From the NCBI RefSeq assembly GCF_003057885.1, contig NZ_QAGK01000007.1, forward strand, positions 124,001 through 188,000: DNA of 64,000 bases, in the 5' to 3' direction. The notes under the pieces are model-generated. The model did not search any database. It was not told where the DNA came from and saw only the letters and a list, made by a program, of their open reading frames with translations. This document shows positions 1,495 to 63,120 of this stretch, one piece after another. Position 1 is the stretch's first letter. Every line of letters begins with the position of its first letter. The position numbers were made by a program, and so were the translations under genes. Origin of the DNA: Oceaniglobus ichthyenteri (GTDB taxonomy: Bacteria; Pseudomonadota; Alphaproteobacteria; Rhodobacterales; Rhodobacteraceae).

Positions 1495-2060
1495 TTTACC
1501 ACCATCATTTATATTTAACGAACCGCTGATCGCCCTATGCGATTCGGCGGATTGTGCGGTTTTCGCCGCGGTTTGGGCGAAACTGCGCCGCGCGCTTGCG
1601 CACCCCTAGGGTTGTGAAAAATAGTTGTCTTGGGTCTGGCGCGGATGATCTCCACATCCCTGTTGCCGTCGCCATGTGCGTAACCCCGCTAAACCTGCTC
1701 GACTAAAAGGGAAATCCCGCAAAGGGCTGTGGCACAGCCTGTGGATAGTTTCGGGAGGAATCTAACGCCCCCCTGCGGCGACAGAATTTCGGGCAACGGT
1801 CAAGCCGTCAAAGCGCAAAATTATCGGTTGAGTCCGATGGCGAAATACGTCAGCTTGTACATGCCGCCGGGGACAACACCAGATATGGTGCAGGTTGAGC
1901 AAAGCGACATATCCAAGGTACGCCGGGTTTCCGGTGCTTCCCAGGGGCCAGAATGGCCCCTGTCGGAGACGTTTTGCGCGACCGCCCCCCATGAACGACC
2001 ACCGCCAGGGGCCTTCTGCAACGACAGGGGCGACCGATATCTTGAGGATAAAGGGCAGAT
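1495..2060 (+). promoter_or_regulatory. Long structured leader region upstream of nrdJ
   Basis: 566 bases without a convincing gene. The clearest element is a perfect 9-base inverted repeat CAGGGGCCA/TGGCCCCTG at 1942-1962 with loop GAA. The right arm region (GCCCCTGTCG, 1956-1965) can instead pair perfectly with CGACAGGGGC at 2022-2031, and partly with CCAGGGGCC at 2005-2013, so two mutually exclusive folds are possible before the nrdJ start. I do not see the conserved GCCACTG box of a cobalamin riboswitch. A GTG-started frame of 111 codons (1729-2064) overlaps the nrdJ start as ATGA, but its composition is not convincing. TGTGGATAG near 1739 resembles a DnaA box with one mismatch. Confidence 0.35.
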
Positions 2061-5000: not shown

Positions 5001-5702
5001 ATTGGTGGTCACAAGGTGTATTTGCGCACCGGTGAATACCGCGATGGCACCTTGGGCGAAATCTTTATCGACATGCATAAAGAGGGGGCCGGTTTCCGCG
5101 CGATGATGAACAATTTTGCCATCGCGGTGTCGGTTGGCCTGCAATACGGCGTGCCGCTGGAAGAGTTCGTCGATGCCTTTACCTTTACCAAATTCGAACC
5201 AGCCGGCATTGTACAGGGCAACGACAGCATCAAGAACGCCACCTCGATCCTTGATTATATCTTCCGCGAATTGGCAGTGTCGTATCTGGACCGGACCGAT
5301 CTGGCCCATGTCCAACCCACCGGGGCGTCGTTCGATGATATTGGGCGCGGATCGCAAGAGGGCGTGCGAAATTTCGAAAACGTGCCCGGATCAAACGGCA
5401 CATCGCCCTTGGATGTTTTGCGCCAAGTCGCCTCAACCGGGTTCATGCGCAACCGCGTGCCGTCGGAATTGCGGGTGTTGCAAGGCGGGCAATTGTCCGA
5501 TCCTGTCGCAACCCTCGACACCCTGGCGCCGGAAATCAAAACACCGACAACCGCCAAGGCGCCCGTGCTCGATTCACGCACCAAGGCCAAGATGCAGGGG
5601 TATGAGGGCGAGGCCTGCGGCGAATGCGGCAACTATACCCTGGTGCGCAACGGCACCTGCATGAAGTGTAACACCTGCGGCGGCACAAGCGGGTGTAGCT
5701 GA
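2061..5702 (+). CDS. nrdJ: Adenosylcobalamin-dependent (class II) ribonucleotide reductase
   Basis: 1213 residues. It reduces ribonucleotides to deoxyribonucleotides using a radical generated from adenosylcobalamin, so DNA precursor supply works with or without oxygen but needs B12. The core has HACFIQS and the radical-site motif NPCSEYMF (C476 and E478), followed by [11 protein letters not shown]; the cysteines in HACF and DTAC would be the redox pair. The long C-terminal extension ends in [20 protein letters not shown] and CNTCGG, a cysteine-rich tail that fits a zinc site or disulfide relay. The length matches the roughly 1200-residue form found in Rhodobacteraceae. The ATG at 2061 has AAGGGC just upstream. 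A strong terminator follows at 5769. Confidence 0.97.
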
Positions 5703-7576: not shown

Positions 7577-9616
7577 ATGATAAACGCTCATCCACCCTTG
7601 CCAGATGCCAATGATTTTGCGCGCCTTCCGCCTCATCTCAGGATGCAGGCCCTTATAGATACGCTGCCCTTGTTCACCTGGCAGATGGATCGCGATTGGC
7701 GCATTACAAAAGTAAGCGATGCAATATCCTGGGTGATGGGGCTGAATCCCGCCGATCTGATTGGTGTTCAGGTGATGGATGTCAATTTCGGCACTGCCGA
7801 GACCGAAGGCGGGCTGGCCCACTATTTCGACACGCTGCTATCTGAAAAAAGCTTTAGCAATCTGTGCTATGAACGCATTGCGCTGAATGGCACCCGATGC
7901 GTCCTGATGGACAGTGCAATACCGATTCTGGACGGGGCGGGCCGATTCGCCGGATATGAGGGCATAACATTTGAACTGAGCCGTACGATCCAGCAGGCCG
8001 AGGAAACCGCCAGTTTGGTGTATTCGTTGAAATCGCGTGCGGATCAGTTGGAAAAGGAACTGTCGGTTCGGAACAAAGAGTTGGAATCAACCAACCATCT
8101 GTTGACCGAAATCATCGAAGCGATGGGTGAGGGCCTTTTGGTGACCTCGGATCAGACGACGGATGATGGGCAGGATCGTATCGAATTCACCAACCAGGCG
8201 TTCCTGGATCAGTTCGATCTGACACCTGATCAGATCCGGTGTGGGATGCCCCAGTCAGACCTGTTGTCGATCATGGCGGCGCGCGGCGATATGGACTCTG
8301 TGGCAGATGAAATGGCCCAGATCATCAGGCAGTTGCGCGGCAAAGGCACGGCGATGATCCGGCTCAAACGCTCAGGGCGCAGCCTGTATTGCCGGGCGTC
8401 CACGCGCCCCTCGGGTGGGCGCGTCATGGTGCACACGGATGTGACCGAACTGGAGGCCCGCAGCGCCGCCTTGGGGCGCGCATTGGAACAGGCCGGGGCA
8501 GCCAGTGCCGCGAAATCAAATTTTCTGGCGACGATGAGCCATGAGTTTCGCACGCCTTTGAATGGCATTGTCGGATTGACGGATGTGTTGGCCGAAACCC
8601 CGCTGAATGCTGAACAAAAAGAGCTGGTGTCGACGATCCAAAGCTCGGCGGCGGCGCTGACCGGGCTGATCAATGACATATTGGATTTCTCGAAAATCGA
8701 GGCCGGGCATGGCGCGCTGGCGTCCGAGCCGGTATTTTTGGCAGACTTGGCGCGCGATGTTCTGGCTTTGGTGCGGCCGTTGGCGCAGGCAAAGGCGCTG
8801 AAGCTTGATCTGTCGATTGGCGCTGACGTGCCCGAAACCGTCTGTGGCGATCCCCTGCGCCTGCGTCAGGTTCTGTTGAATCTATTGGGAAATGCGGTGA
8901 AATTTACCGATCTGGGCACGGTGACCTTGGAAATCAGCGGGCCGGGGCCGATTGTTTTGACAGTGCGCGATACCGGAATCGGCATTCCCGAGCCCGAACT
9001 TGCCACACTTTATGAGCCATTTCGCCAAGTGCAATCCGGGCTTCAGCGACAGTTCGAAGGCACGGGACTGGGCCTCGCAATCACGCAGCGATTGATCGAA
9101 ATGATGGGTGGGGCAATGCATGTCACATCACAGGTCGGGGTGGGCAGTTGTTTTCGTCTAACGCTGCCGCTGAAATGTTGCGCGAAGGGCATCAAAACAG
9201 TCGACATGGCTCATGCGCCGCCTGTCGGATTGGCGGGGCTGCGGGTTTTGGTGGCCGAAGACAACCGTACCAATCAGATGGTCTTGCGAAAAATGTTGGA
9301 AAAAGCAGGCGCGCAGGTAACGATTGCCGCATCTGGCACCGAGGCATTCGAGGCGGCAAAATGTGTGAACGTCGATGTCATATTGATGGATGTCGCGATG
9401 CCCGGCATGAACGGGTTTGAAGCAAGCCGTGCCATTCGCGCATTTGAGGATAAAGTCGGCCTGCCGCGCCGCCCGATCATCGCCGTCACCGGCAACGCAT
9501 CTGATAAAGATCGCGCGATGGCAATGGAGGCGGGAATGGATGATTTTCTCGCCAAACCCGTGCGCCGGGATCAAATGCTGGCTTGTGTCGCAAATTTTCT
9601 GGTGGCCGAAACGTAA
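7577..9616 (+). CDS. PAS-containing hybrid histidine kinase with receiver domain
   Basis: 679 residues from the ATG at 7577. A PAS-like sensor occupies about residues 20-145 (WQMDRDWRITKVSDAISWVM), followed by a coiled coil (SLKSRADQLEKELSVRNKELE) and a second PAS-like region to about 300. The HisKA domain has SHEFRTPLNGIVGL with His322 as phospho-acceptor. The ATPase domain has NLLGNAVKFT, DTGIGIP and GTGLGLAIT. A C-terminal receiver (VLVAEDNRTNQMVL) carries Asp605 in ILMDVAMPGMNGFE. No membrane segment is evident, so it should sense a cytoplasmic or diffusible signal. The start is uncertain: the frame extends to a GTG at 7475. There is no partner regulator or phosphotransferase nearby. It converges with ilvB, 23 bases away. 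Confidence 0.9.
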   Translation: MINAHPPLPDANDFARLPPHLRMQALIDTLPLFTWQMDRDWRITKVSDAISWVMGLNPADLIGVQVMDVNFGTAETEGGLAHYFDTLLSEKSFSNLCYERIALNGTRCVLMDSAIPILDGAGRFAGYEGITFELSRTIQQAEETASLVYSLKSRADQLEKELSVRNKELESTNHLLTEIIEAMGEGLLVTSDQTTDDGQDRIEFTNQAFLDQFDLTPDQIRCGMPQSDLLSIMAARGDMDSVADEMAQIIRQLRGKGTAMIRLKRSGRSLYCRASTRPSGGRVMVHTDVTELEARSAALGRALEQAGAASAAKSNFLATMSHEFRTPLNGIVGLTDVLAETPLNAEQKELVSTIQSSAAALTGLINDILDFSKIEAGHGALASEPVFLADLARDVLALVRPLAQAKALKLDLSIGADVPETVCGDPLRLRQVLLNLLGNAVKFTDLGTVTLEISGPGPIVLTVRDTGIGIPEPELATLYEPFRQVQSGLQRQFEGTGLGLAITQRLIEMMGGAMHVTSQVGVGSCFRLTLPLKCCAKGIKTVDMAHAPPVGLAGLRVLVAEDNRTNQMVLRKMLEKAGAQVTIAASGTEAFEAAKCVNVDVILMDVAMPGMNGFEASRAIRAFEDKVGLPRRPIIAVTGNASDKDRAMAMEAGMDDFLAKPVRRDQMLACVANFLVAET

Positions 9617-9639
9617 TCGCCCGGCCACCGGAAAAGGGT

Positions 9640-11394
9640 TTAAACCATTACCGCGCCGGAACGACCGATGGCGTCTTTGGTGGACGCTTCGCCCAACAAC
9701 ATCTTGTTGTGTGCTTCGCCTGACGGGATCATCGGGAAGCAATTTTCGTGTTTTTCGACTAGACAATCAAACACGACTGGCCCGGCATGGGTGATCATCT
9801 CGATAATCGCATCGTCCAGGGTGTCAGGGTCATCACACCGGATTCCTTTGGCGCCAAAGCTTTCAGCCAATTTGACAAAATCAGGCAGGGATTCTGACCA
9901 GGAATGTGAATACCGCTCACCATGAAGCAATTCCTGCCATTGGCGCACCATGCCCAGGCGTTCGTTGTTCATGATGAACTGTTTGACCGGCAGGCGATAT
10001 TGCATCACCGTGCCCATTTCCTGCATGTTCATCAACCACGATGCCTCGCCCGCGACGTTGATCACCAAAGCATCGGGGTGGGCCATCTGCACGCCAACCG
10101 ACGCCGGGAAACCATACCCCATGGTGCCCAGTCCCCCCGATGTCATCCACCGGTTCGGGTCTTCAAAATCAAGGTATTGCGCCGCCCACATCTGATGCTG
10201 GCCCACCTCGGTGGTGATATAGCGATCATACTTTTTTGTCAGCTCTTCCAACCGCTTAAGCGCATACTGGGGTTTGATGATTTTCCCTTTTTGAGAGAAT
10301 TTCAGGCAATCAATGGCCCGCCACGCATCGATTTTTTTCCACCACTTTGCCAGGCCTTCGCGCTGGGGTTGCAAACCGCGCTCTTTCCAGACGGCGATCA
10401 GTTGTTCCAACACCTGGGTGACATCCCCGATGATCGGCATTTCAACGCGGATCACCTTGTTGATCGAACTGGGGTCGATATCGATATGGGCCTTGCGTGA
10501 ATTCGGGCTGAATTCTTCGACCCGCCCGGTGATCCGGTCATCAAACCGCGCGCCGATGTTGACCATCAGGTCACAGCCGTGCATGGCCATGTTCGCCTCG
10601 TAAAGTCCATGCATGCCCAACATGCCCAGCCATTGCTTGCCCGACGCCGGATAGGCCCCCAGACCCATCAATGTACTGGTGACAGGAAAACCGGTCAGTT
10701 CGGCCAGTTCGCGCAACAATTCTGACGCGCGCGGCCCGGAATTGATGACGCCGCCACCGGTGTACAGGATCGGGCGTTCGGATTTTGCCATCGCTTCGGC
10801 CAGTTCGGCGATTGTATCGGGGTTGCCCATGGTTTTTGGCTGATAATGGCTGACCTTGACCTTTTGTTTTGGGACATAGGTGCCATTGGCGAATTGTACG
10901 TCTTTCGGGATATCCACCAAAACCGGGCCGGGGCGGCCGGATGTGGCAACGTGAAACGCCTCGTGGATCGTGCCGGAAAGCTTGTCAGTCTCTTTCACCA
11001 GCCAGTTGTGTTTGGTGCAGGGGCGGGTGATGCCAACGGTGTCGGCCTCTTGAAACGCATCGTTGCCAATCATGAAGGTCGGAACCTGGCCGGTCAGAAC
11101 GACAATCGGGATCGAATCCATCAACGCATCGGTCAACCCGGTGACCGCATTGGTCGCGCCGGGGCCGGATGTCACAAGGCACACGCCGGGCTTGCCGGTG
11201 GCGCGGGCGTATCCTTCGGCGGCATGGGTGGCGGCCTGTTCGTGGCGCACCAGAACGTGGCGGATTTCGTTTTGCTGAAATATCTCGTCGTAAATCGGCA
11301 GAACGGCACCACCGGGGTACCCAAACACCACCTCAACCCCTTGATCCTTGAGCGCCTTTACCACCATGGCGGCCCCGGTCATCGTCTTTTTCAT
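9640..11394 (-). CDS. ilvB: Acetolactate synthase large (catalytic) subunit
   Basis: 584 residues. This thiamin-diphosphate enzyme condenses pyruvate with pyruvate or 2-oxobutyrate, the first common step of valine, leucine and isoleucine synthesis. The three domains are visible: the N-terminal pyrimidine-binding domain with FGYPGGAVLPIYDE and RHEQAATHAAEGYARA (catalytic Glu), a central FAD/DHS-like domain, and the C-terminal diphosphate-binding domain. In the latter the usual GDGS motif reads GEAS (NVAGEASWLMNMQEM); I recall this variant from other alphaproteobacterial IlvB proteins, so I do not read it as inactivation. GGAGAG precedes the ATG. Expression is probably controlled by the attenuator at 11438-11536. 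Confidence 0.96.
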   Translation of the reverse strand: MKKTMTGAAMVVKALKDQGVEVVFGYPGGAVLPIYDEIFQQNEIRHVLVRHEQAATHAAEGYARATGKPGVCLVTSGPGATNAVTGLTDALMDSIPIVVLTGQVPTFMIGNDAFQEADTVGITRPCTKHNWLVKETDKLSGTIHEAFHVATSGRPGPVLVDIPKDVQFANGTYVPKQKVKVSHYQPKTMGNPDTIAELAEAMAKSERPILYTGGGVINSGPRASELLRELAELTGFPVTSTLMGLGAYPASGKQWLGMLGMHGLYEANMAMHGCDLMVNIGARFDDRITGRVEEFSPNSRKAHIDIDPSSINKVIRVEMPIIGDVTQVLEQLIAVWKERGLQPQREGLAKWWKKIDAWRAIDCLKFSQKGKIIKPQYALKRLEELTKKYDRYITTEVGQHQMWAAQYLDFEDPNRWMTSGGLGTMGYGFPASVGVQMAHPDALVINVAGEASWLMNMQEMGTVMQYRLPVKQFIMNNERLGMVRQWQELLHGERYSHSWSESLPDFVKLAESFGAKGIRCDDPDTLDDAIIEMITHAGPVVFDCLVEKHENCFPMIPSGEAHNKMLLGEASTKDAIGRSGAVMV

Positions 11395-54589: not shown

Positions 54590-54664
54590 TCCGGCGTAGC
54601 TCAGCGGTAGAGCAGTTGACTGTTAATCAATTGGTCGTAGGTTCGATCCCTACCGCCGGAGCCA
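54590..54664 (+). tRNA. tRNA-Asn (anticodon GTT), integration site of the island
   Basis: Acceptor TCCGGCG/CGCCGGA, D-arm GCTC...GAGC, anticodon loop around GTT at 54622-54624 and T-loop GTTCGATCC; CCA is encoded at 54662-54664. Its 3' half (from 54617) is repeated exactly at 63072-63120, marking it as the attachment site. The gene remains whole after integration. Confidence 0.97.
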
Positions 54665-54665
54665 A
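54617..54665 (+). repeat. attL: 49-base direct repeat within tRNA-Asn
   Basis: Begins TGACTGTTAATCAATTGGTC and ends at GCCGGAGCCAA, identical to 63072-63120. It covers the anticodon arm to the CCA end of the tRNA plus one base. Confidence 0.95.
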
Positions 54666-54727
54666 AATTCTCAATAAAATCAGATAGCTACCCAGAACCC
54701 GCTTCGGTGGCCTTTCTGGTTTCGTAT

Positions 54728-54748
54728 TCTGGGGAACGCTGGGGGAAC
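54728..54748 (+). repeat. Left candidate integrase arm sites
   Basis: Two GGGGAAC cores, TCTGGGGAAC (54728-54737) and CTGGGGGAAC (54739-54748), 11 bases apart. The same core occurs five times at the right end (62891-62968) and they are probably integrase arm-type binding sites. Confidence 0.6.
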
Positions 54749-54876
54749 AGATCAGCTTTGTCGCGCATTTGCCAAAATGTCGCAGGCGGAATCAGCCCGC
54801 TATAGCCCAGAACAGCAAAAGGCCGGGACGCATCGCCTCCTGGCCCCCGTTGTTCTAATTGGCGAAACTCTCTGCG

Positions 54877-55338
54877 CTAAATCCTGTCCAGCGCCGCAAA
54901 CGGGTTTTCCTCGGCGGTCTTACCCGCGCTCACCTTGGATCGCGCTGCCGGTGTCAGTCCGAAGTCAGAAAGCAGGCTTTGCGCATGTCGCATCGCCTCG
55001 TTACGCATGGCAACTTCCGGACGCGCTCTAATCAGCTTGTCGCCGCTGGTCGCCGTGGTGGCATAGGTGCGGCCCGCATCCTCGATTACCGCCGTGCAGA
55101 TTTCGATTTCTTCCAGCCTGCTTGCAAGCATCGCCAGCGCCGCCTGGTCGTCCGGTGACGCAATGCCCATGCCCAGCAAGGTCGCGGATAGCTGCGTGAA
55201 GATTTCCGCCACGCGTTCACTCAGCCATTCCGGCGCGTTTGCCGTGCCGATGTTCGCGGGCGGCGCGTCCGGGTTCATGCGATCAGGCCGCGCCGTGCCT
55301 GCGATGATTTTCAGATGGTCCGGTGTTCGCTTTGCCAT
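54877..55338 (-). CDS. Phage terminase small subunit, P27 family
   Basis: 153 residues. The start MAKRTPDHLKIIAGTARPDRM and the segment PEWLSERVAEIFTQLSATL...DDQAALAMLASRLEEIE are characteristic of P27-type small terminases, which recognise the packaging site and load DNA onto the large terminase. A good GGAGG ribosome site precedes the ATG. No large terminase is encoded, so if functional it would have to work with a helper phage's motor, which is how PICI satellites redirect packaging. It is the last gene of the element on this strand. Confidence 0.86.
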   Translation of the reverse strand: MAKRTPDHLKIIAGTARPDRMNPDAPPANIGTANAPEWLSERVAEIFTQLSATLLGMGIASPDDQAALAMLASRLEEIEICTAVIEDAGRTYATTATSGDKLIRARPEVAMRNEAMRHAQSLLSDFGLTPAARSKVSAGKTAEENPFAALDRI

Positions 55339-55413
55339 AACGCAAAACCTCCTTCGATTTGACAGCGCGTAAGTTTGGCTGACCCGCCGGTCCCGCTGTG
55401 TGTCCGGTAGAGA

Positions 55414-55539
55414 TCAGAATACCCCCTCCCCATGCCAGATTAGCAGGGGGAGGGGTCGCACCTTGCCGGATTGAACGCACTGCGAGAGCATGGGCAACGC
55501 ATCCGGCTTTCCGTTATCGGGCTGGATCATCGCCCTCAT
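55414..55539 (-). CDS. Possible 41-residue protein between capsid and terminase genes
   Basis: A frame beginning MRAMIQPDNGKPDALPMLSQ and ending LIWHGEGVF lies in the 218-base gap. The codons look reasonable but the ribosome site is poor and its last third coincides with a GC-rich hairpin (CCCCTCCCC/GGGGAGGGG), which might instead be a terminator. No family is recognised. Confidence 0.25.
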   Translation of the reverse strand: MRAMIQPDNGKPDALPMLSQCVQSGKVRPLPLLIWHGEGVF

Positions 55540-55556
55540 AAAGATGCCCGTGCCTC

Positions 55557-56948
55557 TTACGCGCCCTTGCCAACGCCGGTCAGGGTGAAGAACGCCCCGG
55601 CATGAGCAACCGCCACATCCGCCCGCATATGCGCAAGGAAGGTGTATTGCAGGTTGCTGGCATAGGTCGAAGTTTTCAGCAGTTCGATGCGGATATCCTG
55701 CCGGATGCCAAGCATCAGGTGAGCGAAGTTGCCCGCAAAGATCGTGCTTTCGTCCGTCCCGGTGCCGCCATCAACGGGGATTGCCGTTGTGGTCAGGATC
55801 GGGATATCGGCCACTGCCTTCGGTGCCATCAGCGGTTGCCCTTGGCCGTCCGTCAGGTCGGTGAATGCGCCTTCATCGCGCGGGTGCATGATGTAGGCTG
55901 ATACCGGCCCGGCGTTTGCCGACAGAATGCCGGTGCGCGCCTTCGACAGGTTCGCATAGCTGGCAATCCCGGCATCCTGCGCAAAGGTGCCGATGCCGGA
56001 CGTATTGGCGAGGCCGCGCGGCTCCGGCGGCGTTCCCGTGCCAAGAAGGGCCACGCGGTCCAGTTCCAGCCCCATCGCAGCAGCCAGGACATTGGGCAAC
56101 GCGGTGCCGATGTTCAGGCTATCTTCGAGCAACTCCTGCGATACCTTGACTTGCACAGCCAAGGATTGCGGCGTCAGCGAAACGCGCCCGAATGTCGGAT
56201 CGCTCTCCGCAACCGCGCCAGCCTCATCGCGCCATGCGGGTGTCGGATCGGTCAGCAGTTTCGCATAATAGTTCTGGTCGCTGGTCAACGGCACCGTGAT
56301 CGCGCCCGCGCGGATTGCAACCGATTGCGCGCGCAGGCGGTCGATCAGTTGCGCGGAAAGGGCATCCGGCACGGTATATCCGCCCGCCCCGTCTGTGCCT
56401 TCCGACAATGCGCGGCGTTCCAGATCGGACTTGCCGCCCAGCACCATCGCGCGCAGATATTGCCCCAGCCCCAGGCCACGATATTCGCTGCCCGTGTCGC
56501 GCGCCTGCGCCCAGGCGGTGAAGCGTTGCTCGGGTGCCAGAGCGTAACTGGCTTCCGCCGCTTCGGCTTCCATCCCATCGGTGCGCACTTGGTCAACAGC
56601 ATCAATCCCCGGACGCTTTGCCAGCTGCTCGGAACGTTCGCGCCGCTCACGCGGTCCCTTGTTGCCGATGAAGGTGCGTTCGTCCTTCTCAGTGCGGATT
56701 TCGCCCAGCAGGTCGGAAAATGCGTCACAAGCTTCACTTGCGCTGTCCATCTGCTCGGATGTTCCGTTGCTTACGCGGTCGAGCATTTCGCTCGCTGCCT
56801 TGCGCGCTTCCTTCTCGATACCGTTCAGGTCGGTCCATGCCATCGTGTGCAGGGTCAGGTCATTGATGGATTTGATCTTGTTGCGGGTGTGAAAGTCGAT
56901 TGCTTCCTTGCGGGCTTTGATCGCTTTCGATTCATCTGTGATGAACAT
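55557..56948 (-). CDS. HK97-fold phage major capsid protein
   Basis: 463 residues. The first ~150 residues are charged and helical (ARKAASEMLDRV..., GPRERRERSEQLAKRPG), matching the scaffolding delta domain of HK97-type capsid precursors. The fold then follows with RALSEGTDGAGGYTVPDALSAQLID, VPLTSDQNYYAKLL, SQELLEDSLNIGTALPNVLAAAMGLELDRVALLGTG and the P-domain/A-domain end (GNFAHLMLGIRQDIRIELLKTSTYASNLQYTFLAHMRADVAV). AGGAAATCGG precedes the ATG. No maturation protease is encoded in the element, so cleavage, if it happens, would need a helper enzyme. It has its own promoter-like sequence (57088-57116). Confidence 0.92.
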   Translation of the reverse strand: MFITDESKAIKARKEAIDFHTRNKIKSINDLTLHTMAWTDLNGIEKEARKAASEMLDRVSNGTSEQMDSASEACDAFSDLLGEIRTEKDERTFIGNKGPRERRERSEQLAKRPGIDAVDQVRTDGMEAEAAEASYALAPEQRFTAWAQARDTGSEYRGLGLGQYLRAMVLGGKSDLERRALSEGTDGAGGYTVPDALSAQLIDRLRAQSVAIRAGAITVPLTSDQNYYAKLLTDPTPAWRDEAGAVAESDPTFGRVSLTPQSLAVQVKVSQELLEDSLNIGTALPNVLAAAMGLELDRVALLGTGTPPEPRGLANTSGIGTFAQDAGIASYANLSKARTGILSANAGPVSAYIMHPRDEGAFTDLTDGQGQPLMAPKAVADIPILTTTAIPVDGGTGTDESTIFAGNFAHLMLGIRQDIRIELLKTSTYASNLQYTFLAHMRADVAVAHAGAFFTLTGVGKGA

Positions 56949-56977
56949 TTCCGATTTCCTTTTTCAGAATGCCGGAT

Positions 56978-57022
56978 CGCGCGAAAGAACGCCCCCGGCT
57001 TGAGGTTCGTTTCTTTCGCGCG
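56978..57022. promoter_or_regulatory. Inverted repeat in the capsid gene leader
   Basis: A perfect 12-base inverted repeat CGCGCGAAAGAA/TTCTTTCGCGCG with a 21-base loop, between the capsid promoter and start codon. It could be an operator or an RNA hairpin that gates late expression. Confidence 0.5.
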
Positions 57023-57087
57023 CAGCCATCAGCGTTGCGGGAAAAGGTTTGTCAGGACGCGCCATCAGCGCCAATCCGTTGCAGGTA

Positions 57088-57116
57088 ATATAATACCTCA
57101 TCGGCCTGTCCGTCAA
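57088..57116 (-). promoter_or_regulatory. Strong promoter-like sequence for the capsid gene
   Basis: On the minus strand TTGACG (57111-57116), 17 bases, then TTATAT (57088-57093); TATTAT two bases earlier is an alternative -10. The predicted start lies about 130 bases before the capsid ATG. The -35 box overlaps the stop of the preceding gene. Confidence 0.6.
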
Positions 57117-57349
57117 CATGTTGTAACCGTGCCGCTGCGGGTCAGTTCGCGCACCCCTACCTTGGACAATGCGCGCGCGATGGTTTCCGGCCCCTCGATC
57201 TCGGCATGAAGCTGGATCGCGGCCACAAGGAACGCGGCATTGAAAAAGCGGATATCGCCGTTTTCGGCTTCGAGCGATTGAATCGCCTCTGCCAGCAGGT
57301 CAGAAACCCGCGCCCGTTCGATCTTCATCTTTTCTTCATCTGTAATCAT
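57113..57349 (-). CDS. Small unknown protein of the element
   Basis: 78 residues from an ATG with GAGGAACG upstream. It is mostly helical and acidic at the start (MITDEEKMKIERARVSDLLAEA) with a second helix around RFFNAAFLVAAIQLHAEI. It has no recognised domain and no membrane segment. It lies between the candidate origin and the capsid promoter, so it may belong to the replication or regulation part of the element. Confidence 0.65.
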   Translation of the reverse strand: MITDEEKMKIERARVSDLLAEAIQSLEAENGDIRFFNAAFLVAAIQLHAEIEGPETIARALSKVGVRELTRSGTVTTC

Positions 57350-57397
57350 TGATCGTTCCTCTTGTGGTGGTGGTTTTCCTGCCATTCGGGCGGCGAT

Positions 57398-57500
57398 ATG
57401 ACGCTTATGACGCTTCGTCCCATATCGGGCGTATTGCGCGCGCACGCGCGTATGTGCGCGCGTATACGGTGGATAAGGAGCAAAGCGTCATAAGCGTCAT
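57398..57500. other. Candidate replication origin: inverted pairs of tandem 9-mers
   Basis: ATGACGCTT occurs twice in tandem at 57398-57415 and its reverse complement AAGCGTCAT twice in tandem at 57483-57500, giving a perfect 18-base inverted repeat around 67 bases. The middle holds an alternating purine-pyrimidine run (GCGCGCGCACGCGCG and GTGCGCGCGTATAC). It lies just after the primase-helicase gene in a stretch without genes. Iterons beside a P4-like primase are the expected form of a satellite origin; a long-loop hairpin in the mRNA is the alternative. Confidence 0.55.
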
Positions 57501-57512
57501 GTCCGTAATTTT

Positions 57513-59846
57513 TCATCGCGTTTTCAGCCCTATGAAGCCCCGGCCATGCGGGCGGCGGTGATTCTGAAAGCCGCGTGATTTCAATTCCTTGCGCAACGTG
57601 TGCAGGGTCCAGGCATGTAGCCCTTGCCGCTCGCACCAGAATTTGAAACGGTCATGCAGATCGGTGGTGGTCACGAAACCTGCCGGATCGGTTACGGTTT
57701 CGTCGATCAGGAATTGCCCCAGCGTGTCCTCGTCATCCATGTATTCGGTGGATGCCGCCGCCACTCTGGCGGGCACGTCCAGGCCGCGCTCCTGCCATTG
57801 CAGCGTGCCCTCGATTGCCCATCGCAGGATTTCCGGCCCCTCTGCCCTCAACTTGTCGGCCAAGCCCTTGTCGCGCCGCTCAGGCGGTATGGTGACGGTG
57901 AAGGGCACCAACACCACGCGGGCACGGATCGCTTCATCGACGCCACGGAAAGACGGCTGATTATTCCCGGCAATCATCAGGGTCAGTTGCGGGTCGAAGT
58001 CGAAAAAATCGCCGCGCATGAAACGGGCGGTCATACGATCCCCGCCGGTCAAATCCTTGATAACGGATTCATCCCATGTCTTGCCGACTGGCAATTCGCT
58101 GCCCGCCACCAGCCGCGCGCCTTGCAGCCCGGCAAGCCCGGTTGAATGTTTTTCAACCGCGCTGTTGAGGAAGGTTTCAGCCGCCGCGCGCCGGGCATAA
58201 TCGGCCCAGATATGGGTCAAGGTGTTCAGGAAAACCGATTTCCCGTTTCTGCCCGTGCCGTAGAGAAAAAGCAGTTTGTGTTCCGTGGTCAGCCCGGTCA
58301 GCGCATAGCCTGCCGCGCGCTGCATGAAGGCCACCAGATCGGCGTCACCGTCGAATATCTCGTGCAGGAAGGTCAGCCATCGTTGTGGGCGCGATCCGGG
58401 CGCGGCAGGCGCGCAGGTGGTGGCCTTGGTTATCATGTCGCCCCGGTCGGCTGCGCGCAGCTGCCCGGTGCGCAGATCCACCGTGCCGCCGGGCGTTCCC
58501 AGCAGCAGGCGATTTTCGTCGAAGGCATCGGCCCGCGCCACGCTGGCCGGGTTCGATCTGGCCAGACTTTCGACGCTGGCAACCGTGATCTTGTTGCGCA
58601 ACCAGCGTGATTGATCCTTGGCCCAGGCGCGCAAGCGGTCGCTTTCCTTTTCTTCGAGCGTCCCGGCCTTGCGCTCGGCCCATCCGGTCAAATTCTCGGC
58701 CCGGTCACGCAGATAGGCGCGTGTGCGGGTCAGGTGGTCGAGCCTGTCGTCGATCTGCCAGCGGGTGCCCTCCCAGAAAAGCCATTTGCCCCAGGTGGCG
58801 ACGTGTCGCGCGTCAGCGTCAAAACTGCGCGCGCCCAGATCGGTTGCCAGTGCATCATGGCTAAGGTCGGTTTCGTCGGGCGTGTTCGGACGCGGCTGTC
58901 CATCGGCTGTTGCCGCGCGTGTGCCGGTCGCGCCATAACTGGCCCGCTCTTTCGGTTTTCGCGGCGTTTGCACGCCCGCCTGAAAGCCGCTTTCGATGGT
59001 CGCGGCAATTTCGCTCGCTTCCAGGCCGATGCCCGCACCAGCTGCCTGCAGCCGCGCCTTGACGGTTTCTTCTTGCAAGCCGCCCCCGGCCACGATCTGC
59101 GCCAGATTGAAGGCGCAGCTATTTAGCGTGCCGTTGCGCTTGCCCTCGGGCGCGGCCAACAGCTTTGCAAGTTCGTCCTGCATGGCCTTTTCAGCCCATG
59201 CCGTTGCACCGCCGGTGTCGATCTGGATGCGCGCACCGGGCATGGCACACTCGGAAAGTTTCGGCGCTTGCGCGGCGCGCAGCTTATCCAGCAGCCATTC
59301 CGGGCAATCGGCCAGTTCGAAGAAACCCGGCGGGTTCTTCCAGCGATACGCCTTGCCGGTGCCGGGTTTGATCGTCGGCGGTGCCAGCACCATGCCACCT
59401 TCGCCGCGCACATCTATGCCCGGTGCCAGCTTGCTTTCGCTGTTGCGGATTTCCAGATCGTCGGGCAGGCGGAAATAAACGTGCCAGCCTTCGCTTGGCG
59501 TCGTGCCCTCGATGGTATCAGGCAATGGCCCGTGTTCTTCGATCCAGCCGCGCAGGGTTCCCACGCCATCCTTGTCGTGGCCCTCGGGCGTGTCCGCGTC
59601 GATCACAAAGAAACCGCTATCGGTGCCGGTCGTGACTCCCAGCAGCGCGTCGGGAAATTCTTTCCAATAGTCGCGGATCGCGTCGGGGTCGGTGGTCGCG
59701 CCCCAGCGCGCGCCGCCATTGGCCTTGCCTGCTATGAAAGACCGTTTGCTGCCATCTTTGATGCGGGCAGGGAACACATGCCAGCCACGCGCGGCGCATT
59801 CCAGCGCGGCCTTGGCGACGGTCGGGAAGTTGTCCTGCATGTTCAT
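57513..59846 (-). CDS. Prim-Pol/D5-type primase-helicase
   Basis: 777 residues. The N-terminal half (about 5-190) is a bifunctional primase-polymerase domain (ALECAARGWHVFPARIKDG, GVTTGTDSGFFVIDADTPEG with the metal-binding Asp pair, GWHVYFRLPDD). The middle is a D5_N region (about 330-480). The C-terminal superfamily 3 helicase has Walker A GTGRNGKS (530-537), then GSELPVGKTWDESVIKDLTGGD and LMIAGNNQPSFRGVDEAIRARVVLVPF. Such proteins start and drive replication of P4-like satellites and plasmids. GGGGGG precedes the ATG at 59846, which overlaps the preceding tiny gene (TGATG). Confidence 0.92.
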   Translation of the reverse strand: MNMQDNFPTVAKAALECAARGWHVFPARIKDGSKRSFIAGKANGGARWGATTDPDAIRDYWKEFPDALLGVTTGTDSGFFVIDADTPEGHDKDGVGTLRGWIEEHGPLPDTIEGTTPSEGWHVYFRLPDDLEIRNSESKLAPGIDVRGEGGMVLAPPTIKPGTGKAYRWKNPPGFFELADCPEWLLDKLRAAQAPKLSECAMPGARIQIDTGGATAWAEKAMQDELAKLLAAPEGKRNGTLNSCAFNLAQIVAGGGLQEETVKARLQAAGAGIGLEASEIAATIESGFQAGVQTPRKPKERASYGATGTRAATADGQPRPNTPDETDLSHDALATDLGARSFDADARHVATWGKWLFWEGTRWQIDDRLDHLTRTRAYLRDRAENLTGWAERKAGTLEEKESDRLRAWAKDQSRWLRNKITVASVESLARSNPASVARADAFDENRLLLGTPGGTVDLRTGQLRAADRGDMITKATTCAPAAPGSRPQRWLTFLHEIFDGDADLVAFMQRAAGYALTGLTTEHKLLFLYGTGRNGKSVFLNTLTHIWADYARRAAAETFLNSAVEKHSTGLAGLQGARLVAGSELPVGKTWDESVIKDLTGGDRMTARFMRGDFFDFDPQLTLMIAGNNQPSFRGVDEAIRARVVLVPFTVTIPPERRDKGLADKLRAEGPEILRWAIEGTLQWQERGLDVPARVAAASTEYMDDEDTLGQFLIDETVTDPAGFVTTTDLHDRFKFWCERQGLHAWTLHTLRKELKSRGFQNHRRPHGRGFIGLKTR

Positions 59847-59941
59847 CAGTTCGCCCCCCAGATCAGCACGCAAAGCGCGGATGCCTGCGCCTCGGTCAGC
59901 CCGTGCAGGCGCATCAGAAACCGGATTTGAATCTGCCTCAT
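59846..59941 (-). CDS. 31-residue protein coupled to the primase gene
   Basis: MRQIQIRFLMRLHGLTEAQA followed by SALCVLIWGAN. The start overlaps the previous stop as ATGA and its stop overlaps the primase start as TGATG, so ribosomes could pass through all three frames. The sequence looks like a helix-loop-helix and begins with the DNA-binding-like FLMRLHGLTEAQA. The double overlap is the main reason to believe in it. Confidence 0.5.
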   Translation of the reverse strand: MRQIQIRFLMRLHGLTEAQASALCVLIWGAN

Positions 59942-60180
59942 ACCGCGCCCCCCAGCAGTTCCAGCGGGGCGTATTCGCCCGCGCCCTCGATACGCGCCAG
60001 CGTGCGGCCCCGGTCGTCCTTCAGGACGCGGTGCGGATCGCAGGTGCAAAGCCGCTGGCGCGTATAGATCGCGCAGCCCGGATCGTGCTGATATTCGACG
60101 TGGTAGAGATTGCCGCGCCTGATATGCTTGCGGCGCTCTGCGGCCCATGCTCGGCGGGCCTGCCGTTTCGATTTTGTCAT
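59938..60180 (-). CDS. Small basic Cys-containing unknown protein
   Basis: 80 residues. The N-terminus is very basic (TKSKRQARRAWAAERRKHIRRG) and the middle has YQHDPGCAIYTRQRLCTCDP, with Cys/His spacing that might bind a metal. No family is recognised. It is the first gene of the primase transcript. The candidate antisense RNA at 60235-60298 lies over its leader. Confidence 0.6.
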   Translation of the reverse strand: MTKSKRQARRAWAAERRKHIRRGNLYHVEYQHDPGCAIYTRQRLCTCDPHRVLKDDRGRTLARIEGAGEYAPLELLGGAV

Positions 60181-60234
60181 TTGCTCATTGCCTCGGCATT
60201 TGCCGAAAGCAACGGGCGGTGCTATATTCAGCTT

Positions 60235-60298
60235 TGAAGCCGTCCAAGCCTCAAGTTTTAGATAGCCCCCGCCGTCGCTTTCGGTGGGGGTTTCTATT
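60235..60298 (+). ncRNA. Candidate antisense RNA over the primase-operon leader
   Basis: A promoter-like TTGCCG (60200-60205), 17 bases, TATATT (60223-60228) predicts a plus-strand start near 60235. A hairpin CCCCCGCCG/CGGTGGGGG (60266-60290) followed by TTTCTATTT forms a plus-strand terminator. No plus-strand gene is nearby. The transcript of about 64 bases would be complementary to the mRNA between the gene ending at 60294 and the gene starting at 60180. P4 satellites control replication with a short RNA in a similar place, which makes this attractive but unproven. Confidence 0.45.
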
Positions 60299-60683
60299 TG
60301 CAGATTGCCGCGCGCAGGCTTCTGTTGGCCTCGCGGGTGTTGCTCATGCTGGCCTGTTGCGCGTTCACCGCTGCCCGCACGATCCGGTGCAGGTGGATCG
60401 CATCGGTGCTGTCGAAGTCGGGATTTGCCAAGGCGATGCTGGCGACTTCTAGGACGGATTCGACAAAGCCCTCGGCGTCGTCCACGTCGATCTTGTCATT
60501 GTTATTGATAAGGCAGGCATTTGCGCCCTTTGCCGCCTCAATTGGATCACTGGGCAATTTCGCCATATCTTCGGCGTCCTGCATTCGATGCGCATCAATC
60601 GCAAGCATCTCAAAGTCGCGCGGCGAAAGCTGTTTCAGCGTTTTGACGGCCTCGGCGGGAAGGTCGGAAAGGTTGATGCTCAT
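60294..60683 (-). CDS. Unknown protein downstream of AlpA
   Basis: 129 residues, acidic and helical (MSINLSDLPAEAVKTLKQLS, RDFEMLAIDAHRMQDAEDMA, FDSTDAIHLHRIVRAAVNAQQA). It has no membrane segment and no recognised domain. The start overlaps the AlpA stop by 4 bases, so it is coupled to that regulator and belongs to the early region of the element. Confidence 0.7.
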   Translation of the reverse strand: MSINLSDLPAEAVKTLKQLSPRDFEMLAIDAHRMQDAEDMAKLPSDPIEAAKGANACLINNNDKIDVDDAEGFVESVLEVASIALANPDFDSTDAIHLHRIVRAAVNAQQASMSNTREANRSLRAAICK

Positions 60684-60934
60684 GCCGCCACCTCGCGCGC
60701 TTCCAACCAGGCGACGATTTCGGCCTCTTTCCAATAGCGGCGGCGTCCGATGTAGATCGGGCGCGGAAAGTCCAGGTCGTGATTGTCCAGCCAGCGCCAC
60801 AGGGTCATGTCGCTGATACCGCCGCACATCTGGCGCACGGTCGCTGCCTGAATGCGGCGGTGGGGATTGCGGTCGTGTTCCGGGTCAAGCGCGCTCGTGG
60901 TGCGCGCAATCGGAGTTGCGGGTTGGGTGTTCAT
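60680..60934 (-). CDS. AlpA-family DNA-binding regulator
   Basis: 84 residues. A MerR/excisionase-like winged helix (about 26-78): RIQAATVRQMCGGISDMTLWRWLDN followed by the wing DFPRPIYIGRRRYWKEAEIVAWLE. AlpA proteins activate integrase or act as excisionases in P4-like elements. The start codon has AAAGGA upstream, placed in the loop of an inverted repeat (GGTGCCA/TGGCACC, 60935-60968) that could hide or expose it. Confidence 0.88.
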   Translation of the reverse strand: MNTQPATPIARTTSALDPEHDRNPHRRIQAATVRQMCGGISDMTLWRWLDNHDLDFPRPIYIGRRRYWKEAEIVAWLEAREVAA

Positions 60935-60968
60935 GGTGCCACGTCCTTTCGTGTTAGGTCATGGCACC
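60935..60968 (-). promoter_or_regulatory. Inverted repeat around the AlpA ribosome site
   Basis: GGTGCCA and TGGCACC, 20 bases apart, frame the AAAGGA ribosome site directly before the AlpA ATG. It could be an operator for AlpA itself or an RNA hairpin. Confidence 0.4.
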
Positions 60969-61011
60969 CCATTGAGGGCATTTTTCGCGCCTTGGATATT
61001 GCGAAACAATT

Positions 61012-61656
61012 TCAGAAATTAAATCGCAGTTCTTTTGCAGCCCTCAAGGTGTCGCGCGCGCCTTGCTCTGTTTGCGCCTTATATTTCAAAAATTTAGCGA
61101 TTTCCGAAAGAGATGCGCCACCCTCGGCTGCATCCAATACTCTAAGATATTCCGGCCATTTTGCAGGGTGGCGGCGTTTTTGTACCTTCCCGCCGCTCTC
61201 CTCAGTTTGAACTTCTACCAACCTCTTTTTCACATTTTCAATCTGGGGTGCGATAGGTGCGCTCAAGTCAAAATCGACTCGTAAAAAACCCGCTGGGGCC
61301 GTTTCCCGCGTGAATTCACGGATGGAAGTGTCAGTCCAACTCCAGCCAATGGCATTTTCTGGTTGATCTCCAATCTTCGGGTTTGGCATTTCCCACCACA
61401 ATATCCGAGAAAAAATAATGAAACCGGGATCTTCTGGACGCAATATACGCCCGCCTTCATGAGTTGGATGCTCAGCGTCCAGCCATTCCCTGAATTTGAG
61501 ATTGCTCTGATAGGTTTGGCTAGCGTATTCTTTAAATTCTTGGCGTAGATCTTCACGACGTCGGAGAAATTCCCATTTCCATCTGTTGCGTGACCAATCA
61601 CAAAAATCTCCGTAGGCGTCAGGATCGCGCCAATCTGGAATGCCCCATTCGTTCAT
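61012..61656 (-). CDS. Unknown protein with DUF6499-like N-terminus
   Basis: 214 residues. The start (WGIPDWRDPDAYGDFCDW, NRWKWEFLRRREDLRQEF) resembles the tryptophan-rich WRDxxAY...AWEFLRRNxxY motif of DUF6499/transcriptional regulator-like proteins found on alphaproteobacterial plasmids and islands. The C-terminal end (VLDAAEGGASLSEIAKFLKY, EQGARDTLRAAKEL) looks like a helix-turn-helix. Base composition is lower in GC than its neighbours, with several ATT, AAA and TTT codons. It overlaps the integrase stop by 4 bases. A regulatory role is likely but not shown. Confidence 0.68.
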   Translation of the reverse strand: MNEWGIPDWRDPDAYGDFCDWSRNRWKWEFLRRREDLRQEFKEYASQTYQSNLKFREWLDAEHPTHEGGRILRPEDPGFIIFSRILWWEMPNPKIGDQPENAIGWSWTDTSIREFTRETAPAGFLRVDFDLSAPIAPQIENVKKRLVEVQTEESGGKVQKRRHPAKWPEYLRVLDAAEGGASLSEIAKFLKYKAQTEQGARDTLRAAKELRFNF

Positions 61657-62885
61657 GCCTTGGCCTCGCCAATCCGCACTACGTTATCCGCCGTGCCTTC
61701 CACCAGATCGAAAACAAGACGCGCCCATGCGTCCAGCGCATCCCGCTTTTCGTCGGCATAATCGTGTCGCTGGTAAACGCTCACGATGCCCCCGGCGGTG
61801 CCGCTCACATGGTTCAGCACGGCCTCTGTCACTCTCACCGGAATGCCTAGCCGCGCCATGCCGGTTGCCGCCGTGCGGCGTAGATCGTGAAACGTCCAGT
61901 GCGAGATTTCCTGCCCGGCAATCTCTGCCATGCGTTCGGCAATGTGATTCCGGCCCTTGTGGTAGCCCTGTACCGCGCTTCTGCCGTTCGTGGTGAACAC
62001 ATACCCCGCATCGCTCTTGAGGCGCTCCACCGCCCCCAGAACGTCCAGTGCAGCCTGTGACAACGGCACATCATGCGCCCGCCCGTTCTTGGTGCGGTCG
62101 GCAGTCAGGTGCCATAGATCGTCGCTAACCTCTCGATCGGTCATGTTCACAACCTCGCCAAGCCGTTGCCCGGTCAGCAACAGCATTTTGCCAAGATGCC
62201 CCCACGGCTGGCCCTCAACCGTGCAGGCTTTCCAGAACAGTCTGATTTCGTCGTCGGTCAACACGCGGTCGCGGCTCTTTTCCTTCGCTGCCGGTTTGAC
62301 GCCCATCGCGGGCGACTGGTCGATTATATCGCGTTCCACACACCAGCTTAGGAATTTGTTCAGATACGCCCGCACCCGGTTGGCGGTCACAACCCGCCCG
62401 CTGTCGGCTATCCCGTCCAGTAGGTCGATCACGTCGCGCTTGGCGATATCGTGAATATCCCGCTCGCCCCAGACTGCGACCACATGCCGGTTCAACTCGC
62501 GCTTGACGGTTTCGCCGGATTTCAGGGTGGACAAGTGCCGCTTGCCGAATTGCTCCACAAGCGTCTTGATCTTGTCGCGGCCTGATTGGTCAACCTCGAC
62601 GCGTGCCGCCTTTTCGGCCTCTCTCTCGCCCGCCGGATCGCGCCCATCCTGCGCAGCAATCAAGGCTTCACTTGCCCGCGCTCGCGCGTCTGCAAGCGAA
62701 AGCAAAGGATATCTGCCTAATGTCATCCGGCGGTGCTTTTCCCCAAACCGATACCGAATTTGCCATGACTTTTTGCCGCTCGGCTGCACGATGAAATAAA
62801 GGCCCGTCATCAGGCTATCCGGCACCTCTTGCCTCTTGTCCGTCACCTTCCATTTGTCAACGCCGGTTGCCGTCAGCTTAGCCAT
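61653..62885 (-). CDS. Tyrosine integrase of the element
   Basis: 410 residues. An N-terminal arm-binding domain (DUF4102 type: GLYFIVQPSGKKSWQIRYRF, MTLGRYPLLSLADARARASE) is followed by a core-binding and a catalytic domain. The active residues are R241 (TGQRLGE), H333 and R336 (FHDLRRT) and the nucleophile Y371 (SVYQRHD). It recombines the tRNA-Asn site with the element. The ATG at 62885 has GAGGGGAACG upstream; this ribosome site contains one of the repeated GGGGAAC cores, so integrase binding could repress its own translation start region. A -10-like TATAAA lies at 62954-62959. Confidence 0.95.
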   Translation of the reverse strand: MAKLTATGVDKWKVTDKRQEVPDSLMTGLYFIVQPSGKKSWQIRYRFGEKHRRMTLGRYPLLSLADARARASEALIAAQDGRDPAGEREAEKAARVEVDQSGRDKIKTLVEQFGKRHLSTLKSGETVKRELNRHVVAVWGERDIHDIAKRDVIDLLDGIADSGRVVTANRVRAYLNKFLSWCVERDIIDQSPAMGVKPAAKEKSRDRVLTDDEIRLFWKACTVEGQPWGHLGKMLLLTGQRLGEVVNMTDREVSDDLWHLTADRTKNGRAHDVPLSQAALDVLGAVERLKSDAGYVFTTNGRSAVQGYHKGRNHIAERMAEIAGQEISHWTFHDLRRTAATGMARLGIPVRVTEAVLNHVSGTAGGIVSVYQRHDYADEKRDALDAWARLVFDLVEGTADNVVRIGEAKA

Positions 62886-62890
62886 GCTCG

Positions 62891-62968
62891 TTCCCCTCAA
62901 AATCTGTTCCCCAATCGGTTCTGGGGAACATTCTGGGGAACAGAAATGGTGTTTTATACTGTTCCCCA
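62891..62968. repeat. Right candidate integrase arm sites
   Basis: Five copies of GGGGAAC or its complement GTTCCCC at 62891-62897, 62907-62913, 62924-62930, 62936-62942 and 62962-62968. The two direct copies read TCTGGGGAAC, 12 bases apart, as at the left end. They lie between the integrase start and attR and overlap its promoter. Confidence 0.6.
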
Positions 62969-63071
62969 CGCAAGCAAACACTGCCGAACATATCGCGCAT
63001 ATGCAAGTAAAATAAAGGAAAAATCAGGGCCGATAGTTTTACATATTTAGGCCGCGTTACCCCCTAAATAG

Positions 63072-63120
63072 TGACTGTTAATCAATTGGTCGTAGGTTCG
63101 ATCCCTACCGCCGGAGCCAA
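63072..63120 (+). repeat. attR: 49-base copy of the tRNA-Asn 3' end
   Basis: Identical to 54617-54665. Only the 3' half of the tRNA is present, so this is the duplicated attachment core rather than a tRNA gene. Confidence 0.95.

Follow-up and report, generated by a model that had tools for sequence, protein, structure and literature searches.

A putative phage satellite at a tRNA-Asn gene of Oceaniglobus ichthyenteri with its own capsid protein, small terminase and cos-like site

Introduction

How could a mobile element that encodes a capsid protein and a small terminase, and in which we detect no packaging motor, get its DNA into particles? The question is raised by an 8.5-kb element in the alphaproteobacterium Oceaniglobus ichthyenteri. 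We analyzed a 64-kb stretch of its genome (contig NZ_QAGK01000007.1, positions 124,001 to 188,000), which we call the window; coordinates without a locus label are those of the window. In the labels of our analysis, L numbers are fetched loci and G numbers are genomes. We think that the element (54617-63120) is an intact integrated phage satellite that hijacks a helper phage (our rough probability is 0.78), and it is best read as being organized like the phage-inducible chromosomal islands (PICIs) of Gram-negative bacteria.

Results and Discussion

Anatomy of the element

The element is 8,504 bp long and is bounded by two perfect 49-bp attachment (att) repeats that lie 8,455 bp apart, at 54617-54665 and 63072-63120 (100% identical). 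ARAGORN places a tRNA-Asn(gtt) on the plus strand at 54590-54664, so the first repeat is the 3' part of this tRNA, which is the insertion target. The other direct-repeat families in the window (among the 20 largest of at least 60) have repeats of 15-30 nt with 70-93% identity.

From the end with the second repeat, the genes encode a tyrosine integrase (61653-62981; PF13356, PF00589 at E = 1.1e-17, and PF22022; phrog_1 at 1.2e-66); orf214; an AlpA/HTH_17 excisionase-like regulator (60680-60934; PF05930 at 22.2 bits with a cut-off of 21, PF12728, and phrog_66); orf129; orf80; a Prim-Pol/D5 primase-helicase of 786 amino acids (57513-59873; Prim-Pol at 8e-37, D5_N at 9.8e-21, and the C-terminus of P4-family primases at 2.3e-84); orf110; an HK97-fold major capsid protein (MCP) of 463 amino acids (55557-56948; PF05065 at 4e-39 and TIGR01554 at 3e-52); and a small terminase (TerS) of the P27 family with 153 amino acids (54877-55338; PF05119 at 8.4e-18, phrog_83 at 4.9e-26, and TIGR01558 at 53.8 bits with a cut-off of 45.6). 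The minus strand encodes all of the assigned genes, whose reading frames are open. A preliminary description, made from the letters alone, had listed the integrase, AlpA, Prim-Pol/D5, HK97 capsid and P27 TerS genes within 8.5 kb and matching att repeats, and the profile matches and the 49-bp repeats bear this out.

It had also listed no large terminase (TerL), portal, protease or tail genes, and we agree. With profiles built from the fetched loci, there was no match for TerL, portal or head protease in any open reading frame (ORF) of the element with at least 50 amino acids. When applied to all ORFs of 32 phage loci (L138-L169, described below), the same profiles found TerL in 32/32, portal in 31/32 and protease in 18/32, so of the three negatives, that for the protease is the least secure. 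A tblastn search of the element with 21 tape-measure sequences, which could also reveal a remnant, gave a best E value of 0.04.

TerS and a cos-like site match one group of phages

A scan for the element's TerS found 34 viral loci, including L007 and L137; the other 32 (L138-L169) are the phage loci, and each of them has a TerL match. Their TerS is 61-76% identical to the element's in 23 loci and 38-50% identical in another eight (L158, L160, L161, L164-L168), and in L169 it is partial. Named phages are more distant (best TerS 44.6%, from Caulobacter phages). The element's capsid protein matches 20 of the 32 phage loci at E<1e-3, with 24-34% identity over 154-373 amino acids.

The 100-125 bases upstream of TerS in 13 of these phages have in common a G-rich box, GGACCGGCG and a T-rich stretch. 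We made a profile solely from those 13 sequences, all from TerL-bearing phages (effectively fewer than 13, because L150, L152 and L153 are near-duplicates), and searched 1.34 Mb with nhmmer. The profile matches the gap between the MCP and TerS genes, giving a cos-like site on the minus strand at 55345-55449 (aligned at 55414-55345, envelope 55449-55334; 24.4 bits, E = 6.3e-6). This is the sole match in the window below E = 1, and when the window was resampled 100 times by a first-order Markov model, the top score was 9.5 bits. In nine phage contigs (L138, L140, L141, L143-L147, L150), the contig end is at most about 110 bases upstream of TerS, and four of them (L140, L143, L144, L146) begin at profile position 73, with extrapolation by 1-4 bases in three cases. 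A cos end would give several assemblies the same first base, so the site upstream of TerS is probably cos. Position 73 corresponds to 55379 in the window (counted by hand on the printed alignment).

Does this site go together with this type of TerS? Across 38 targets, the profile had matches at E<1e-3 in nine (the window, L007, L016, L033, L040, L062, L137, L189 and L191, with L040 matching twice but counted once) and at E values of 1e-3 to 0.05 in seven (L010, L019, L020, L028, L029, L031, L032). Matches at E<1e-3 were found in 7/8 loci with strong TerS matches (all of the nine above but L033 and L040; L045 lacked one), compared with 2/30 of the other targets (L033 and L040). The suggestion that the element chooses its DNA through its own TerS is thus strengthened: it has a phage-type cos-like site and a TerS that matches one phage group.

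L062 and L139 are on one 49-kb viral contig, with a satellite capsid and TerS beside a P27-type phage. The two have a stretch of exactly 127 bp in common, where a tape-measure gene begins; 127 could be the k-mer length of an assembly, and the contig might thus be joined artificially. G070 has more TerS relatives (L190:9335-9859 and L189:17676-18008), one of them truncated beside a satellite, and TerL was not found in the fetched stretch around them.

Related elements

A capsid scan of the family gave matches in 5/295 genomes at E<=1e-20, and only G000 and G255 had over 50% identity. Scans elsewhere gave 46 loci in genome contigs and, for viral contigs, the best 80 of 215. We studied 59 loci in detail (L007-L010, L014-L046 and L060-L081; L010 is part of G255). 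The synteny work did not include L047-L059 and L082-L136, which are more distant. Forty-one of the 59 form the satellite-type set (L007-L010, L014-L046 and L060-L063). Considering all ORFs at E<=1e-3, these 41 loci have MCP in 41, TerS in 12, tape measure in 10, protease in two (L026, L031), portal in one (L025) and TerL in none. The absences are weaker in five of the loci, which are under 9 kb.

Besides the element in the window, 12 capsid-bearing elements are flanked by tRNA repeats, at several tRNAs: L018, L020, L024, L025, L035, L036, L037, L041 (whose repeat has two mismatches in 38), L043, L189, and the viral contigs L072 and L077. The window's element and the first ten are 7,046-10,694 bp long, while those of L077 and L072 measure about 8.7 and 10.7 kb, respectively. 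Among these first 11 (E<=0.01), MCP is present in 11, TerS in five (the window, L189, L018, L025, L020), tape measure in two (L020, L035), portal in one (L025), and TerL and protease in none. Adding L077 (TerS present; TerL and portal not found) and L072 gives TerL 1, portal 2, protease 1, TerS 6 and tape measure 2 among 13. MCP is in 13/13 by selection, as the capsid was the query except for the window (given) and L189 (found via TerS). Since 12 of these 13 lack TerL, the proposal that the element is a satellite holds up. A full-length prophage between the same att sites, which the preliminary description had named as the sign of a deletion remnant, was not found: none of the 13 att-bound elements is such a prophage.

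Some relatives deserve mention in their own right. L025 (7428-8606), att-bound at a tRNA-Asn, combines capsid, portal and TerS, and TerL was not found. L020 is from Silicibacter lacuscaerulensis ITI-1157 and L035 is from Qipengyuania polymorpha 1NDH17. In G255 (L010), a capsid relative and a divergent TerS lie beside a tRNA-Asn, and the left part has transposase-like genes. Next to them are presumed hydrolase and kinase genes that resemble those beside the window's tRNA-Asn. An out-of-sample capsid scan of the order matched 7/390 genomes, including the known G000 and G255; the match in G414 is partial, with two stops. Two of the other four matches are probably L025 and L020 again. The two new loci are L217, which has MCP and TerS and in which neither TerL nor portal was found, and L218 (5 kb), where MCP is the only one of these genes. 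In L220 and L222, the primase is 66% identical to the element's over about 450 amino acids, and these loci also hold portal, protease, capsid, TerS, TerL and a match to the tape-measure profile; they could be neighbors like the capsid-forming PICIs (cf-PICIs) or else phages that share the replication half.

The capsid protein

An AlphaFold2 model of the MCP, from a 24-row capsid alignment, has a mean pLDDT of 83.3 and a pTM of 0.65. It has an N-terminal helical (delta-like) region, a disordered linker (109-134), a long helix (280-302) and C-terminal strands, and its best PDB matches by Foldseek are the capsids of phage R4C, a gene transfer agent (GTA) and HK97. According to the model, the protein has a full HK97-type fold with a delta-like region.

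In a 109-row capsid tree, the element's protein is in a set of nine inside a 32-row clade (support 100/96). The 32-row clade consists of alphaproteobacterial, unnamed and viral loci, and TerL was found in none of them. It is nested in a 60-row group (99/93), alongside loci from Rhodocyclales, Methylococcaceae and sphingomonads and the viral contigs L064-L076, most of which have TerL and portal next to the capsid gene; TerL is present in 11/15 and portal in 10/15 of L064-L078. The capsids of the TerS-matched phages fall outside the 60-row group, and those of L144, L158, L160, L161 and L162 group with the alternative capsids of L137 and L189 and with the GTA capsid (11 rows, 99/97). A GTA as the source of the element's capsid was ruled out (31% identity over about 103 amino acids).

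The alternative capsids come from cassette swaps. L137 has a primase that is 87% identical and a TerS that is 84% identical to those of the element, but its capsid (3837-5063) belongs to another HK97 group, and L189 has a similar swap. Replacement of the capsid in L137, with the primase and TerS kept, is what one would expect of a capsid that the element requires and can exchange. Ratios of nonsynonymous to synonymous substitution (dN/dS, by Nei-Gojobori) are low for the MCPs of L035/L036 (0.07), L062/L045 (0.14) and L010/L020 (0.14) and for the primases of the window and L137 (0.13), all of them pairs whose synonymous sites are not fully saturated.

Other capsid loci may be unusual in their arrangement. 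L061 has two 79%-identical capsid regions (2056-4949 and 8427-11294) 6.4 kb apart on one viral contig, with a tRNA-Asn between them, and might represent tandem satellites. L073 might be a small circular element: this 8.7-kb contig has 127-bp repeats at its ends and contains a capsid frame of 590 amino acids. In Clostridioides difficile, plasmids of about 7.9-8.3 kb (e.g. NC_008226.2) carry an HK97 capsid gene that is 26-28% like the window's, which is possibly a parallel case.

How the element might spread

We infer excision, replication, packaging and transfer, and the role of the capsid, from the gene content. The integrase, with AlpA, would excise the element from the tRNA-Asn, and the Prim-Pol/D5 protein would replicate it. 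TerS would recognize the element's own helper-type cos, and an infecting P27-type phage would provide the TerL that receives the DNA from it; we consider this redirection likely. The HK97 capsid subunit would enter the head, most likely by co-assembling with helper subunits, as does Ccm of SaPIbov5, and thereby yield small heads. The portal, protease, motor, tail and lysis functions would be supplied by the helper. That the subunit leads to small heads, either by co-assembly or by forming the whole shell, seems slightly better than an even bet and is the part of this account that we are least sure of.

Where would the helper come from? The genome of O. ichthyenteri has no TerL of PF20441 or PF03354. 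Its one PF04860 portal is in a cluster on another contig (L012) whose gene order we take to be that of a Rhodobacter-type GTA. A resident helper was therefore ruled out.

Several observations weigh against a helper-dependent satellite. Without a resident TerL of these families, the helper must come from outside. Satellite behavior (excision, induction, packaging, small particles) is a prediction here, made from the genes. The att-bound L072 (at tRNA-Leu, 10.7 kb) carries genes for portal, protease and TerL, the last in two frames that overlap, and has no TerS, although it is cf-PICI-like and on a separate branch of the capsid tree. Five of the nine contig ends near TerS are off position 73 (L141 starts at about 63, L145 at about 53 and L150 at about 25, and L138 and L147 have no profile match at E<0.1). 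There is no cos-profile match better than E = 0.05 in 22 of the 38 targets and no convincing one in L217 (E = 0.28). Because cos and TerS are adjacent, the match might partly reflect one inherited segment. Some dN/dS values are higher (0.29 for the primases of the window and L009, 0.30 for the MCPs of L008/L015, and 0.44 for the L061 pair), and those for the element's MCP against relatives (0.15-0.31) and its TerS (0.06-0.07) are on near-saturated dS. Finally, capsid genes of PICIs are stated to be unnecessary for helper-assisted transfer (PMC10111431, with its reference 6 as the source; here and below, statements about published systems rest on passages of the cited papers).

The alternatives differ mostly in what they have the capsid do. 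First, the satellite might, in the manner of cf-PICIs, make the entire shell out of its own MCP and borrow the portal, protease and motor. The HK97-type fold predicted by the model, with its delta-like region, would suit this, as would the distant similarity to helper capsids and the presence of cf-PICI-like loci with TerL and portal (L064-L076) in the wider capsid group. On the other hand, the element's own protease, portal and TerL were not found, and Ccm of SaPIbov5, which is 24% identical to the helper's capsid, formed no shells alone (PMC8569155). We regard this as possible but doubtful.

Second, and a little less probable still, the capsid protein might be non-structural for the satellite (an interference protein or a dispensable captured late gene), with concatemers packaged into full-size helper heads. 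There are precedents: packaging as concatemers of phage length is described for an E. coli PICI, in line with the stated dispensability of PICI capsid genes (PMC10111431), and phage-inducible chromosomal minimalist islands (PICMIs), which lack a capsid gene, are packaged as concatemers (PMC10803314). But the capsid is present in all 13 att-bound elements (with the selection described above), several capsid pairs have low dN/dS, and the capsid was replaced, not lost, in L137 and L189.

Third, a P27-type prophage stripped of TerL, portal, protease and tail by deletion would account for the phage-type TerS and cos and for the lack of another such phage in the genome, but this is very improbable, given the perfect ends and open frames, a capsid in the satellite clade apart from those phages' capsids, the 12/13 att-bound elements at various tRNAs that likewise lack TerL, the lack of a fuller copy in relatives save L072 (10.7 kb, with a distant capsid), and the gene order. 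In the phages, that order is cos-TerS-TerL-portal-protease-MCP, while the element has MCP-cos-TerS-att, which deletion alone does not give; capture fits better than loss. The preliminary description had suggested that the capsid and TerS were kept: both are present, but loss from a prophage is not how we think they came to be there. Overall, we are confident that the element is an integrated satellite and not a remnant.

Comparison with known satellites

The genomes of Gram-negative PICIs are divided into integration, dynamic, replication and late zones, and 21 of the 29 reference PICIs have a capsid gene (PMC10111431). Some PICIs carry terS, and EcCICFT073 and PmCI172 encode capsid homologs (PMC6092414, PMC10111431). 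Like these two, the element is small and att-bound, with an integrase and AlpA at one end, a variable zone, a primase and a late zone, in one orientation. Their late zones often have an MCP and in some cases terS, and TerL and portal were not found in the element. It differs in its alphaproteobacterial host (those named for PICIs in PMC10803314 are Firmicutes and Gammaproteobacteria) and in its combination of a PF05065 HK97 capsid, a P27 TerS and a matching cos. At 8,504 bp, it is outside the 10-20 kb stated for PICI genomes (PMC10111431), which is a minor difference given an average of 9.5 kb (PMC10803314).

In SaPIbov5, Ccm replaces pentamers of the capsid and is cleaved, though the SaPI has no known protease according to the cited passages (PMC8569155). 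The element resembles SaPIbov5 in being cos-type, in having no detectable protease of its own, and in encoding an HK97-fold capsid homolog that is distant from the helper's (24% there, and 24-34% here for the presumed helper). SaPIbov5 is Gram-positive, however, and the element carries TerS. Like cf-PICIs and cf-PISPs, the element has its own HK97 capsid and TerS, and the cf-PICI-like L220 and L222 share its primase; but cf-PICIs encode TerL, portal, protease, connectors and HNH (PMC10690885), and the first three were not found in the element. The PISP of Vibrio TG93 is also small, with a capsid and a small terminase and no mention of TerL in the cited passages, but it is a plasmid with a capsid of the capsid protein E family and a protease, and no integrase was found there (PMC13230959). 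PICMIs lack capsid and packaging genes and lie beside fis, while the element has a capsid and TerS and is at a tRNA-Asn. Capsid switchers are another known system (PMC12409344).

By its gene organization and the published descriptions, rather than by descent, we liken the element to a PICI that would work with a Ccm-type capsid. Because a capsid and TerS without a motor are already known from PICIs, the lineage is less new in kind than had been suggested: it is a new alphaproteobacterial variant.

Tape-measure genes in relatives

The most surprising point is that some satellites carry a tape-measure gene, although the window's element does not. Tape-measure-like proteins are encoded in 10 of the 41 satellite-type loci (L007, L019, L020, L023, L030, L031, L032, L035, L045 and, as a start only, L062), directly after the capsid gene or after a small gene behind it. 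The profile was built partly from these same loci, so we also consulted other collections. In Pfam, L031 matches TMP_3 over the cut-off (9.1e-48), L020, L032 and L035 are below the curated cut-off, and L019 and L045 have no match. Tape-measure families of PHROGs match L019 (best E = 2.9e-76), L020 (2.9e-21), L035 (3.7e-61) and L045 (3.7e-59). In L020 (11816-13654) and L035 (11076-13697), the gene is inside an att-bound element in which portal and TerL were not found.

A survey of Gram-negative PICIs found Phage_min_tail in 0/203, 0/923 and 0/273 satellites and, in the cited passages, treated it as a prophage marker (PMC10111431). We found no report of a satellite-encoded tape measure among the titles and abstract openings of the satellite and PICI papers that our searches listed. 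These relatives might remodel tails, although we hold this idea tentatively. Shorter tails are not indicated, because the complete tape measures have 601-894 amino acids in satellite-type loci versus 571 in L139, the sole complete phage copy from the TerS scan.

Other genes and the insertion site

The remaining genes of the element, all on the minus strand, have few family matches. Orf214 (61012-61656) is regulator-like: it has a match to PF20109 at 23.7 bits (cut-off 23.8) and is 39% identical by blastp to a homolog in L014 that adjoins the integrase. The listed ORF at 60294-60827 overlaps AlpA, and an internal ATG makes 60294-60683 the likelier gene (orf129), with sub-threshold family matches only. 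Neither orf80 (59938-60180) nor orf110 (57113-57445) has a family match. By blastp, orf110 has homologs in other loci (34-71%), which sit upstream of MCP in L008, L014, L015, L017, L025, L027 and L040, and it is a candidate assembly or packaging accessory. When seven of the element's proteins were compared with the defense genes of PADLOC, only AlpA matched, weakly.

Megablast found no plasmid copies of the element, and its right flank matches none of five other genomes of the genus. The exact att core is present in a single copy in 12-14 kb stretches of G298 and G296 and absent from a 2.9 kb stretch of G183; an exact empty site did not emerge from these stretches. In G295, of the same genus, the tRNA-Asn att cores enclose another island, of 14.2 kb (L204, 1355-15520), so the site serves more than one element.

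Significance

The element extends PICI-like satellites to the Alphaproteobacteria; relatives of its capsid occur in Rhodocyclales, Methylococcaceae and sphingomonads, and the pairing of its cos and TerS with a defined phage group is testable. The late zone is modular (the capsid was swapped, and TerS, portal, protease or tape measure were gained), which asks which parts of the virion a parasite must own. A tape-measure gene in a satellite would put tail length, beyond head size, under the satellite's control. More speculatively, this lineage might reset the virion with its own shell subunit, its TerS and cos and, in the sisters L020 and L035, its own tape measure. If so, the parasite would set head size, DNA choice and tail length while borrowing the motor, portal and tail proteins, and the element in O. 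ichthyenteri would be the two-gene form.

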